This document shows positions 1,948-6,155 of a DNA stretch of 64,000 bases, one piece after another (the stretch's first letter is position 1; each line of letters begins with the position of its first letter). The DNA lies in assembly GCF_001610895.1 (NCBI RefSeq), contig NZ_CP011273.1, positions 2,542,001 to 2,606,000 of the forward strand. Reading direction: 5' to 3'. The notes under the pieces were generated by a model, which searched no databases, was not told where the DNA came from, and saw nothing but the letters and a program-made list of their open reading frames with translations. The position numbers were made by a program, and so were the translations under genes. This stretch comes from Planctomyces sp. SH-PL62. Its GTDB lineage: Bacteria; Planctomycetota; Planctomycetia; Isosphaerales; Isosphaeraceae.

Positions 1948-2397
1948 ATGACCGTCTCGGCCAAGTGCTACTATGCGTTGCGGGCGATTTACGCCCTCTC
2001 CGAGCACCCCGGCCCGGCGCCGATGAAGGCGAACGAGATCGCCGAACGGCAGCATATCCCGATCAAGTTCCTGGAGGCGATCCTCAGCCAGCTCAAGGGG
2101 GGCGGGTTCGTCAACAGCCGACGAGGCGCCGAGGGGGGCTACCGGCTCGCCAGGCAGCCCGAGGAACTGACCGTGGGCCAGATCATCCGATTCATCGACG
2201 GCCCCGTGGCTCCGGTCGACTGCGTCAGCCAGTCTCGGCCCAAGCCCTGCGAATACCCCGGCCAGTGCCCCTTCTTCGGCTTCTGGGGACGCGTCCGACA
2301 GGCCATCGCCGACGTCGTCGACGAGACCACGTTCGCCGACATGATCGCCGAGAACCGCAATCCCGGCTACCCCTACGTGGCCGACTGGACCATCTGA
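1948..2397 (+). CDS. Rrf2-family transcriptional regulator with a Cys triad
   Basis: 149 residues. The start (VSAKCYYALRAIYAL), an N-terminal winged helix-turn-helix at about 1-75 and the GGYRLAR segment are typical of Rrf2 proteins (IscR, NsrR, CymR, RirA). Cys92, Cys101 and Cys107 are spaced C-x8-C-x5-C in the region where IscR and NsrR bind a [2Fe-2S] or [4Fe-4S] cluster, so redox, iron or NO sensing is plausible, though a fourth ligand is not evident. ATG 1948 is preferred to GTG 1942 because AAAGAG lies seven bases upstream and family members start this way. The product ends in DWTI, like the second Rrf2 protein at 3488-3898. It is convergent with the Met/Cys-rich gene. Confidence 0.9.
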   Translation: MTVSAKCYYALRAIYALSEHPGPAPMKANEIAERQHIPIKFLEAILSQLKGGGFVNSRRGAEGGYRLARQPEELTVGQIIRFIDGPVAPVDCVSQSRPKPCEYPGQCPFFGFWGRVRQAIADVVDETTFADMIAENRNPGYPYVADWTI

Positions 2398-2423
2398 AGC
2401 CCTCCGACCCGTGAGCTTCGAAC

Positions 2424-2465
2424 GACGCCGCCGCGACGCCCGAGAAAGGGCCTCGCGGCGGCGTC
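2424..2465. terminator. bidirectional hairpin terminator between convergent genes
   Basis: GACGCCGCCGCGA at 2424-2436 pairs perfectly with its complement at 2453-2465 (13 bp). The stem is extended inside by GCCC/GGGC. There is no clear T-run. Its position between the Rrf2 stop (2397) and the stop of the minus-strand Met/Cys-rich gene (2484) supports a shared terminator. Confidence 0.65.
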
Positions 2466-2483
2466 CGCGATCCGGCTCCGCGC

Positions 2484-2957
2484 TCAGCAGGAGCAGCAGA
2501 CCGGCATGCCGTTCATGCAAATGCAGCAGACGCAGCCCGACTTCATCATGGCCGTCATGCAGTCGCAGCAGGCCTGAATCATCGCGCAGCACGCGACGTC
2601 GCCGCTGGTGCAGGTCATGCGGACGCCGTCGTCGGTCATCTCGCACTTGCAAGCGGCCATCGCCATGTTGCACTGACACATCATCATACCGTTCATCATC
2701 ATGCAGCAGCTGCACAGGCCGCCGGCCATCATGTTGCAGAGGTTCTGCATCATGCTCGCGGCCATCTTGTCCTCGGCCTTGCAGGTCATCATCATCCCGC
2801 CGTCGCACTTCTCCATCATGATCGTGCAGCGGGGGACCATCATCCACTGGGCGGCGGCGGGCATCGACGTCCCCGCCGACATCCCCGCCGGGCTCCCCAT
2901 GCCCATGTTCATCCCCATGGCCATCCCGCTCCGCTCCATCATCATCGCGCCGTTCAT
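2484..2957 (-). CDS. extreme Met/Cys-rich protein, probable metal-binding
   Basis: 157 residues, of which I count about 39 Met and 24 Cys, roughly 40% of the protein. The N-terminal ~40 residues are Met/Gly-rich (MAMGMNMGMG). The rest is packed with Cys clusters such as CSCC, CQC, CKC, CCDC, CVCCIC and the terminal PVCCSC, mixed with MM and MMM runs. Dense thioether and thiol ligands suggest soft-metal binding, for example Cu(I), as in metallothioneins, Csp copper-storage proteins or Met-rich periplasmic proteins. I do not recognise a named family, and this is inference from composition. No signal peptide is visible. A G-run lies just upstream of the ATG. Rrf2 genes flank it on both sides, convergent at its 3' end and divergent at its 5' end. 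The opposite-strand frame (2411-2821) is Arg/Ser low-complexity and is rejected. Confidence 0.7.
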   Translation of the reverse strand: MNGAMMMERSGMAMGMNMGMGSPAGMSAGTSMPAAAQWMMVPRCTIMMEKCDGGMMMTCKAEDKMAASMMQNLCNMMAGGLCSCCMMMNGMMMCQCNMAMAACKCEMTDDGVRMTCTSGDVACCAMIQACCDCMTAMMKSGCVCCICMNGMPVCCSC

Positions 2958-3054
2958 CGTACACCCCCCGCTGAAGCCCGCCGATCCCTGGGGCGTGCTC
3001 CGCCCCGACCCCCTACTCTAGTAACGGAAGCGGGGCCGCGCCGCAAGAAAATTC

Positions 3055-3070
3055 ATCAAAGAACTTTGAT
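3055..3070. promoter_or_regulatory. palindrome in the divergent region, candidate Rrf2 operator
   Basis: ATCAAAGAACTTTGAT is an inverted repeat with 7-bp arms and a 2-base centre. It is AT-rich in otherwise very GC-rich DNA. It lies about 98 bases upstream of the Met/Cys-rich gene on the minus strand and about 170 bases upstream of the small gene and second Rrf2 gene on the plus strand. Rrf2 dimers bind AT-rich palindromes, so autoregulation and control of the divergent gene is a reasonable inference. No second copy was seen at the first Rrf2 gene. Confidence 0.45.
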
Positions 3071-3162
3071 GCATCATGACTATTCAGATCAAGGAGACCG
3101 GCCAAATCAGGTATCGGGCGAGGCATTCCAGACAAACTCAGTAGGAATACTCAGGATCAGTC

Positions 3163-3191
3163 TTGACTTAGCCGATAGGGATAGTGACAAT
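3163..3191 (+). promoter_or_regulatory. candidate sigma-70 promoter for the small gene and second Rrf2 gene
   Basis: TTGACT at 3163-3168 (5 of 6 consensus) is separated by 17 bases from GACAAT at 3186-3191 (4 of 6). The 45-base distance to the ATG at 3237 and the position downstream of the 3055 palindrome fit a regulated promoter. Confidence 0.4.
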
Positions 3192-3236
3192 GACGACGTC
3201 TTCAAGGTCGTCCTCCTTACGAAGAGGTTGGAAGCG

Positions 3237-3446
3237 ATGTCTCGGATCAACTGGTCGGTCTCCTCTCCGTCGGCGTCGGTCCCTTCGAGCACGGCCCCCG
3301 GCGCGGCGACCTGGTTCGCCCCGGCGGCCGGCGGGTTCACGGTGGCTGGGCCCTGGGCGTCGATCTATCGCCTGGCCTATCAGCAGGCGCTGGCGGCGAG
3401 GGAGCCCTCGCGGTTCCAGAAGATGATGGAACCCTGTTGGAACTGA
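3237..3446 (+). CDS. small hypothetical protein ahead of the second Rrf2 gene
   Basis: 69 residues. The N-terminal half is rich in Ser, Ala and Pro. The C-terminal half contains ASIYRLAYQQALAAREPS and ends MEPCWN, so it is probably one amphipathic helix with a conserved-looking tail. ATG 3237 is chosen over an in-frame ATG at 3066 because a GGA sequence precedes it, the candidate promoter (3163-3191) lies downstream of 3066, and the residues before it look unconserved. The stop is 41 bases before the Rrf2 start, so the two genes are probably co-transcribed. I recognise no family; a small accessory partner of the Rrf2 or Met/Cys protein is only a guess. Confidence 0.5.
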   Translation: MSRINWSVSSPSASVPSSTAPGAATWFAPAAGGFTVAGPWASIYRLAYQQALAAREPSRFQKMMEPCWN

Positions 3447-3487
3447 CCCCGACGACCGTCGCGGACCGATTGCAGGAGGTGGGGCCC

Positions 3488-3898
3488 GTGAAGCTCTCGG
3501 CCAAGGCGGAATACGCGTGCCTGGCGGTGATCGCCCTGGCTCACCGCCATGAAGGGGGCCGACCGGTGCCCATCCGGGAGATCGCCGAGGCGCATGAGAT
3601 CCCCGAGACGTTCCTCACCCAGATCCTGATCCGCCTCAAGGGGGCGGGGCTGGTGGTCAGCACTCGGGGGTCCTCGGGCGGCTACCGCCTGGCCCGCGAT
3701 CCGATGACGATCTCGATGGGGGACGTGCTCCGCGTCATCGACGGCGAGGGCTTCCAGGAACGTCCCCAGCGCCGGTCTTCCTTCAACGCCCTCGCCGAAC
3801 TCTGGGAGCGGATCCAGGCCTCCCAGGTGAACATCCTGGACGGCACGACGGTCGCCAACCTCGCCGCCCTGGACCGGTCGCCCGACTGGACCATCTGA
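3488..3898 (+). CDS. Rrf2-family transcriptional regulator without cluster cysteines
   Basis: 136 residues. VKLSAKAEYACLAVIAL at the start and GGYRLARDPMTISMGDVLRVIDG at about 60-85 (winged helix plus linker) are Rrf2 signatures. No Cys is present in the segment where IscR-type proteins bind Fe-S, so this one may sense something else, as CymR-type Rrf2 proteins do through a partner. GTG 3488 is chosen because AGGAGG at 3474-3479 sits eight bases upstream and the product then begins like its family; the in-frame ATG at 3437 would overlap the preceding gene. The C-terminus (SPDWTI) matches that of the first Rrf2 protein, which suggests a common origin or function. Confidence 0.9.
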   Translation: MKLSAKAEYACLAVIALAHRHEGGRPVPIREIAEAHEIPETFLTQILIRLKGAGLVVSTRGSSGGYRLARDPMTISMGDVLRVIDGEGFQERPQRRSSFNALAELWERIQASQVNILDGTTVANLAALDRSPDWTI

Positions 3899-4826: not shown

Positions 4827-6155
4827 TCAGGAGAGCTTCGAGCGGTGGGCCCAGACTTTTTCGAAGGCCTGGGCGTACTGGTCGATCAGTTCGGGGGCTT
4901 CGGAGGTGAAGTAGGGGAGGGCGATGGCGGTGCGGTTAGCCTGTTCGGAGCCGGGGAGTTCGGGGATCTCGGGCTTGCGGCTCCACCACTCGGCCTCGGC
5001 GTAGAGGGGGAGCTTGTGCTGGAGGGGATAGCGGTGCTCGCGGGCCTGCACCCCCTCGGCGCGGAGGGCCTTGACGATCGCGGCGCGGGTCGCGCCGGCC
5101 CTGGCTTCGTCGAGGAACAGGATGTTGTTCGCGTAGTAGATCCGGCCGGCGTCGGCCGGGCAGGGGGGCTCGATCAGGCCGGGGAGCTGCGCGAGACGGT
5201 CGTTGAGGCGGCGGACCTGCGCCGCGCCGGAGGCGTTGCGGGGGGCGAGCCGACCGAGCTGCGCGCGGGCCAGCGCGGCGGCCATCGGGTTCATGCGGAG
5301 CTTCAGGCCCAGGCCGGTGCCGGCGTATCGCTTGTAGGGGCTGTCGGCCGGGAACCGGGCCGGGACGTCGGAATGGCCGAAGGCCGTCGCGCGCTCGAAG
5401 TCGGCGCGCTCCTGGTACATCCCCATCCCCCCTTCGAGCGCGGGGAGGGGCTTGCTGCTCTGATAGCTGAAGATGGACATCCGCCCCCAGCCCCCCAAAA
5501 GCTTGCCCCGGTACGAGGCGCCGGGGGCGTGGGCGACGTCTTCCAGCAGGATCAGGCCCTTCTCGCGGGCGAACGCCGAGACGTCGTCCATCGGGCAGGG
5601 GAGGCCCATCCAGTGGACCGGCATCAGCGCCTTGACGTCCTTCGTCAGTCGCTTGCGGGCGTCGTCCACGTCGAAGTTGAGCGTGCGCGGGTCCACGTCG
5701 ACGAAGACCGGGACCAGGCCGAAGAGCCGCATCGGCACGATCGAGGCGAAGAACGTGTAGCTGGGGACCATCACCCCGGAGCCGGGGGGGAGGCCCAGGG
5801 CGAAGAACATCGCCGCGATGGCGCTCGTGCCGTTGCAATGGGCCTTCGCGAAGGGGGCGCCGAAGTAGTCCCGCCAGTCGCGCTCGAGATCGTCGATGGG
5901 ACCGTAGCCGGGGTTCCGCAGGACGTCGAGCACCGCGGCCTCGTCCTCGGGGCCGTACAGCGGCCATCGGGAGGCCTCGACCTGCCGGGCCGCCGCGAGC
6001 GTGACGGCCGGCCTGCCGCCGTCGATCGCCAGCGGCTCGCCGACGACGACGCCCGCGTCCGCCCCGGCGAGCCGCCCCGCCGCCATCGCCGCCGCCGTCC
6101 CCAGCAGGGCGCGCCGCGAGGCCCCCACGCCGCCGTTCGGTTCGTCGCGTCGCAT
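4827..6155 (-). CDS. Tat-exported DegT/DnrJ/EryC1/StrS-family PLP protein
   Basis: 442 residues. The body matches the DegT/DnrJ/EryC1/StrS aminotransferase fold (type I PLP), used mainly to transaminate nucleotide-linked keto-sugars. The HCNGTSAI phosphate-binding loop is at about 106-113. LLEDVAHAPGA carries the Asp (about 206) that contacts the pyridine nitrogen. SYQSSKPLPALEGG carries the candidate Schiff-base Lys (about 235). Unusually, the protein begins with a twin-arginine-like leader (SRRALLGTAAAMAAG), implying folded export with the cofactor bound. It is divergent from the amidohydrolase pair. The physiological substrate is unknown. Confidence 0.85.
   Translation of the reverse strand: MRRDEPNGGVGASRRALLGTAAAMAAGRLAGADAGVVVGEPLAIDGGRPAVTLAAARQVEASRWPLYGPEDEAAVLDVLRNPGYGPIDDLERDWRDYFGAPFAKAHCNGTSAIAAMFFALGLPPGSGVMVPSYTFFASIVPMRLFGLVPVFVDVDPRTLNFDVDDARKRLTKDVKALMPVHWMGLPCPMDDVSAFAREKGLILLEDVAHAPGASYRGKLLGGWGRMSIFSYQSSKPLPALEGGMGMYQERADFERATAFGHSDVPARFPADSPYKRYAGTGLGLKLRMNPMAAALARAQLGRLAPRNASGAAQVRRLNDRLAQLPGLIEPPCPADAGRIYYANNILFLDEARAGATRAAIVKALRAEGVQAREHRYPLQHKLPLYAEAEWWSRKPEIPELPGSEQANRTAIALPYFTSEAPELIDQYAQAFEKVWAHRSKLS

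Follow-up and report, generated by a model that had tools for sequence, protein, structure and literature searches.

What is the function of a 157-residue protein that carries 39 Met and 24 Cys, sulfur amino acids making up about 40% of its length, and what controls it? The gene in question, MC (2484..2957, minus strand), lies in a 64-kb window of the 6.8 Mb genome of Planctomyces sp. SH-PL62 (C1:2542001-2606000; by window we mean this whole stretch of DNA). The first-pass annotation of the stretch had reported this open reading frame (ORF) between two Rrf2-family regulators and next to a 69-residue small protein; the residue counts proved exact and all the ORFs are in place. One regulator, R1 (1948..2397, plus strand), is convergent with MC. 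On the other side, divergent from MC, lie the small protein SP (3237..3446, plus strand) and, 3' of it, the second regulator, R2 (3488..3898, plus strand). The annotation had proposed a stress- or copper-responsive circuit. We favour a different reading, to which we give a little less than an even chance: MC may act in the cytosol as a sink or store for Cys and Met, with R2 controlling it as a CymR-like Rrf2 protein that reads sulfur amino acid status.

MC is a conserved protein family. Sequence searches found it in 16 of 45 Isosphaeraceae genomes, with full-length copies 61-82% identical; when 392 genomes from across the phylum were sampled with a profile, 5 had it. In GTDB contigs 39 MC loci came to light, belonging to Isosphaeraceae, Gemmataceae, Planctomycetaceae, a Rhodopirellula metagenome-assembled genome (MAG), Phycisphaerales, Opitutaceae and Spartobacteria; MC therefore also occurs in Verrucomicrobiota, i.e. 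outside planctomycetes. This distribution across families and phyla answers the annotation's reservation that the frame might be conserved only in close relatives, and rules out a chance ORF. In all 17 Isosphaeraceae sequences compared the MC frame is uninterrupted, and a frame test gave it a synonymous fraction of 0.56, above the 0.13-0.38 of the other five frames, despite Met having no synonymous codon. The antisense frame is also fully open, owing to the ATG and TGC codons, and its synonymous fraction is 0.175; the substitution pattern is hence not that of the opposite strand, which had been another of the annotation's doubts, and MC is not an antisense artefact. Third-position guanine-cytosine content exceeds that of the neighbours in most genomes tested, not all, and we do not rely on it for expression level. 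Two copies in differing contexts are found in Limnoglobus roseus, Aquisphaera insulae and a Gemmataceae MAG.

No match to MC was found in Pfam or NCBIfam, and no Pfam family scored above noise for 45 members of the family. In the Protein Data Bank (PDB) the MC sequence by itself matched nothing at E <= 10, and a profile gave no credible match. An AlphaFold model built with 36 relatives reached a pLDDT of about 84-94 over residues 41-157; residues 1-34 are Met/Gly-rich and disordered in the model, and residues 40-157 folded. The order of elements (E-E-H-E-E-E-E-H-E-E) is that of a tandem beta-beta-alpha-beta-beta unit, and the two halves of the sequence repeat each other (hhalign probability 97.5%, E 8e-12; 20 column-shuffled controls gave at most 3.9%). 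Repeat 1 (residues 42-98) is encoded at 2664..2834 and repeat 2 (residues 101-157) at 2487..2657, both on the minus strand. With Foldseek at E <= 0.001 the model had no match in PDB or BFVD, and the latter result led us to drop a viral origin. As the N-terminus shows no evident export signal by eye, we infer that MC is cytosolic.

Sulfur enrichment is strong and lineage-wide among the 45 relatives, as a store would have it: Met plus Cys occupy 36-56 of the 118 core positions (31-47%). The core holds 4-39 Met and 17-34 Cys, and the two are anticorrelated (r = -0.85). Five Cys are invariant and about 11 more nearly so. There is almost no His, Tyr, Trp or Phe (38 of the 45 members have no His), and the invariant residues other than sulfur amino acids are K50, G54, N89, G90, G111, S118, G119, D120 and P152, most of which (the G, N, D and P residues) fall at predicted turns.

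SP is a dedicated partner of MC. The protein has a YxxAxxxA motif and its last residue is Asn in 30 of 30 aligned copies. In Isosphaeraceae the SP profile gave 16 matches at E < 1e-14, every one adjoining MC; SP is present in 15 of the 16 genomes that bear MC (in the exception, G013, MC is cut by a contig end) and in none of the 29 that lack it (Fisher's exact p about 5e-11, a value that ignores shared ancestry). We had expected a general multicopy planctomycete family, and for Isosphaeraceae this is ruled out, strong matches being found only beside MC. Of 28 MC loci outside Isosphaeraceae, 20 have an SP match at E < 1e-3 to a leave-one-out profile, and in each of them SP and MC are on opposite strands. 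The family has no match in the libraries searched. At three other MC loci (L065, L067 and L069) the gene directly 3' of MC encodes a secreted-looking protein of about 220-280 residues with no Pfam match.

Both regulators belong to the Rrf2 family, by PF02082 (R1: E 3.9e-35, 121.3 bits; R2: E 5.6e-30, 104.6 bits; cut-off 30) and by TIGR00738 (114 and 97.6 bits; cut-off 73.3). As the annotation had it, both end in DWTI and only one has three Cys at the Fe-S position: R1, with a C-x8-C-x5-C loop (C94, C103 and C109 of the 151-residue form). R1 stays below the NCBIfam equivalog cut-offs for IscR (82.4 against 207.55), NsrR (44.5 against 182) and RirA (38.5 against 193). R2 has a single Cys, near the N-terminus, and none in the Fe-S loop. 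It scores below the NCBIfam equivalog cut-off for CymR (89 bits against 195); the lack of Fe-S Cys ligands together with linkage to cysteine genes is that of CymR-type regulators, and the solved structures nearest to it are 4cic and CymR. In our tree, R2-type proteins form a clade (100/95) with the Rrf2 protein of the cysH-sat operon, placed beside CymR and 4cic with moderate support (81/75).

The link between MC and Rrf2 genes recurs in other genera, families and phyla, so that the loss of linkage which the annotation had allowed for is not seen. In 13 of the 16 MC-bearing Isosphaeraceae genomes MC and R2 (or its orthologue) are divergent, R2 mostly behind SP; in Singulisphaera an R2-class gene lies about 10 kb from MC, and in the copy read its neighbour is a cystathionine gamma-type enzyme. 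Outside Isosphaeraceae an Rrf2 gene is found within about 2.5 kb of MC in 9 of 28 loci; from 8 Rrf2-like genes per 6.8 Mb, about 0.2 would be expected by chance. The linked protein is of the three-Cys type, not Cys-less, in Gemmata, Planctomyces and Opitutaceae, indicating that the association spans more than one Rrf2 class. Bracketing by two Rrf2 genes holds here and is no general feature of MC loci: R1 adjoins MC only in this genus and one relative, which rules it out as the main regulator and leaves its role in the circuit uncertain, and what is widely linked to MC is R2 or a three-Cys Rrf2 gene upstream of cysK. At three Phycisphaerales loci (L077, L087 and L088) the usual place of the Rrf2 gene behind SP is taken by an XRE-type regulator (HTH_3) or a small related ORF, which hints at an alternative regulator. 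Upstream of MC and SP, at 1-2 kb, six Gemmataceae loci have a transposase-like gene (DDE_5, PF13546), in several of them between the pair and the Rrf2 gene.

Which signal might such a regulator read? The nearest paralogue of R2 in its own genome (C1:5039548-5039928) is Cys-less and sits between cysH (phosphoadenylyl sulfate reductase) and sat (ATP sulfurylase/adenylyl sulfate kinase). The order cysH-Rrf2-sat was found in most of 30 Isosphaeraceae loci read, and this Rrf2 protein is a good candidate for a general regulator of sulfate assimilation in the family. MC itself recurrently neighbours genes of sulfur metabolism. In two Aquisphaera loci, SP, Rrf2, cystathionine beta-synthase and cystathionine gamma-synthase are divergent from MC (one of them, L035, passes the NCBIfam cut-offs of TIGR01137, 512.4/510.25, and NF005871, 536.6/513). 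Cystathionine beta-synthase neighbours MC at L078; in the Rhodopirellula MAG it is accompanied by a pyridoxal phosphate enzyme of Cys/Met metabolism. Cysteine dioxygenase and an FAD/NAD protein stand beside MC at three Isosphaeraceae loci; the FAD/NAD(P)-binding protein (NAD_binding_9, PF13454) also adjoins MC in the Opitutaceae locus L084. Three Gemmata and Planctomyces loci have an Rrf2-cysK pair near MC (in L085, TIGR01139 438/351), and the Opitutaceae locus has Rrf2-cysK-rhodanese-FAD/NAD-rhodanese-sulfate-binding protein (NF007989 472.5/387; TIGR00971 171/155.5). A sulfonate-type transporter is found near MC in Phycisphaerales (L087; TIGR01728 207/163.5). Among 119 neighbour genes, no metal-transport or metal-sensor family recurred in the top 25 of 96 families. 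Of the circuit that the annotation had proposed, then, the conserved association of MC, SP and Rrf2 stands, and nothing recovered indicates copper or general stress. The paralogy of R2 to the sulfate-assimilation regulator and the recurring cysteine and sulfate neighbours lead us to favour sulfur amino acid status as the signal; the context of MC appears to be sulfur, not copper, and this signal looks the better supported of the two.

The region between MC and SP carries a 27-bp inverted-repeat element (3071..3097, minus strand) with a TGA-N9-TCA core at 3077-3091, which we predict to be an Rrf2 operator. A leave-one-out matrix detected the element upstream of MC in all 18 Isosphaeraceae regions (positions -139 to -169; p <= 0.005 for each), and 13 of them have the exact core, where 0.9 would be expected. 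It lies about 73-76 bp before the predicted MC start. By consensus match, a sigma-70-like promoter is predicted at 3018..3046 on the minus strand (TTGCGG, 3046-3041; 17 bp; TACTAG, 3023-3018), weak in this genome and stronger in relatives. The promoter was consistently callable in 13 of the 18 regions, and there the centre of the element lies 36.5-40.5 bp 5' of the -35 box. Activator sites typically keep a fixed spacing 5' of the -35 box, and the MC element, at a constant distance before its predicted -35 box, reads as one. In the cysH operon, the conserved sequence overlaps a promoter close to consensus (TTGACT-17-TAAGAT; the spacer is conserved as well), which is typical of a repressor site. 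The cysH-type matrix picks the same stretch upstream of MC in about 10 of the 18 regions (p < 0.05) and fails on the window's own element, for which reason an operator common to cysH and MC is suggestive only. A search of the whole genome for the operator, with two mismatches allowed, gave 733 matches, too loose to define a regulon. Another Rrf2 protein, RirA, has TGA-N9-TCA as its operator. The IRO box of RirA has been confirmed (PMC7762939; its sequence is not printed there). Between the predicted operator and the MC -35 box there is also a palindrome, CATCAAAG-AA-CTTTGATG (3054..3071), possibly a second site; its conservation is limited to the genus, with a partial form in Aquisphaera.

How could these parts work together? 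CymR with CysK represses the genes of cysteine formation in the presence of cystine (PMC2869319), and it is by analogy with CymR-CysK that we take R2 to sense sulfur amino acid status. When Cys is plentiful, R2 and its cysH-Rrf2-sat paralogue would bind DNA. Binding at the site predicted over the cysH promoter would turn sulfate assimilation off, and binding at the predicted element of MC, in the activator position, would turn MC on. Cys and Met would then be deposited in the folded MC protein, whose core is about 45% sulfur residues, and under sulfur shortage MC would be degraded and its Cys and Met released. SP, perhaps a chaperone, an assembly factor or a degradation adaptor, might assist or time the storage. 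A fuller version seems to us possible and rather doubtful: an unrecognised bacterial protein reserve of organic sulfur with a role like that of cyanophycin for nitrogen, made of a new tandem-repeat fold and an Asn-ending partner. In that version the reserve would be switched on by the same DNA-bound state of an Rrf2 protein that turns sulfate assimilation off.

Several observations weigh against a store of Cys and Met under R2. Among the MC relatives, Met is more strongly anticorrelated with Leu/Ile/Val/Phe (r = -0.94) than with Cys, so the trade-off between Met and Cys may come partly from ordinary hydrophobic exchange or composition and from shared ancestry. About 16 near-invariant Cys would exceed the needs of a pure store and would suit a metal cluster. 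No sulfur gene lies near MC at the three loci with the secreted-looking protein or at L073; the regulator near MC at L077 and L088 is of the XRE type, not Rrf2; the cysH-type matrix is not significant on the window's own element (p about 0.15); and single metal genes may occur among the neighbours, the statement on recurring families covering the top 25 of 96.

The same near-invariant Cys, many of them in CC or CxC pairs in strands, are what would be expected if MC were a cytosolic store or buffer of soft metal, most likely Cu(I), functioning like a metallothionein or a copper storage protein (Csp) with a fold of its own, the sulfur genes supplying or balancing its Cys. The swaps from Cys to Met in distant members would still be compatible with Cu(I), the Met-rich tail has M-x-M patterns, and an S. 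aureus cymR mutant is sensitive to copper (PMC2869319). We nevertheless find this explanation unlikely, if worth keeping in view: no metal family recurs among the top 25 neighbour families, the class of the regulator belongs with sulfate and cysteine genes, a cysteine dioxygenase adjoining MC is hard to explain, His is absent from most members, and neither sequence nor fold matches Csps or metallothioneins. A buffer of thiols, sulfane sulfur or oxidants, induced through Rrf2 when thiol balance is disturbed, appears improbable. Rhodanese-domain genes and cysteine dioxygenase do adjoin some copies of MC, a peptide Met sulfoxide reductase lies near it at one locus and the Rrf2 family includes redox and NO sensors; against this, rhodanese occurs at one locus only, the reductase is a single gene among 119 neighbours, the top 25 families include no recurring peroxidase or thioredoxin family, and buffering requires neither a specific fold nor a dedicated partner. 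These last two features, with the invariant non-sulfur residues, suggest a specific fold and interaction and would suit a structural, enzymatic or Fe-S-related protein, e.g. a scaffold assembled together with SP, whose sulfur richness would be a by-product of metal or cluster chemistry. Most of those residues are at predicted turns, however, and the protein, which has no His and few acidic residues, shows no motif of a catalytic type; we consider this reading very improbable. A Cys and Met store controlled by R2 remains the explanation we prefer.

Downstream of R2 the window encodes a Dabb-domain protein (PF07876; 3975-4505, minus strand) and a DegT-type aminotransferase (4827-6155, minus strand); their synteny is partial within the genus and no link to the circuit is evident.

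Stores of carbon, nitrogen, phosphorus, iron, copper and inorganic sulfur are known from bacteria; we know of no described dedicated bacterial protein store of cysteine and methionine. If the favoured reading is true, a sulfur role is assigned to a conserved protein pair unrecognised by databases, and it can be tested in cultured planctomycetes, among them Gemmata, Paludisphaera and Singulisphaera. If instead the metal reading is true, MC shows a fold not seen before for the dense storage of soft metals, so that either outcome is informative.

Like the annotation, we found no described system of this form in the open-access literature, and the closest comparisons are partial. Plant seed storage proteins enriched in Met and Cys (delta-zeins and others) hold organic sulfur (PMC3420316, PMC4227475); MC is likewise enriched, and unrelated to them in sequence. 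No bacterial equivalent of sulfur-rich storage proteins was found in the open-access literature. Csp1 and Csp3 resemble MC in being small, with many conserved Cys and an apo-protein that, for MC, is predicted to fold. Csps are four-helix bundles (PMC7558416), whereas MC is predicted to be a doubled beta-beta-alpha-beta-beta unit, has 4-39 Met in its core and hardly any His, and matches them in neither sequence nor fold; we do not regard it as a Csp. Metallothioneins (SmtA, MymT) are also Cys-rich and small; MC differs in being larger, Met-rich, predicted to fold without metal, duplicated and partnered, a metal context was not found, and with no match to a Pfam metallothionein among the 45 members we do not place it among them. 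The three-Cys Rrf2-cysK pairs of Gemmata and Planctomyces have the Cys spacing of R1, which in the window has no adjoining cysK and forms no supported clade with those regulators. The nearest likeness is to the CymR regulon of B. subtilis and S. aureus, in which CymR acts with CysK as the master regulator of cysteine metabolism: R2, like CymR, is a Cys-less Rrf2 protein linked to cysK, cystathionine beta-synthase, cystathionine and sulfate-assimilation genes. CymR is described as a repressor, whereas the MC element sits at an activator position, and MC and SP genes are not known from any CymR regulon. The effector pair of MC and SP, matching nothing in the libraries searched, is to us new, and in its proposed function we have a little less than even confidence; the regulator is of a known kind, a sulfur-linked Rrf2 protein.

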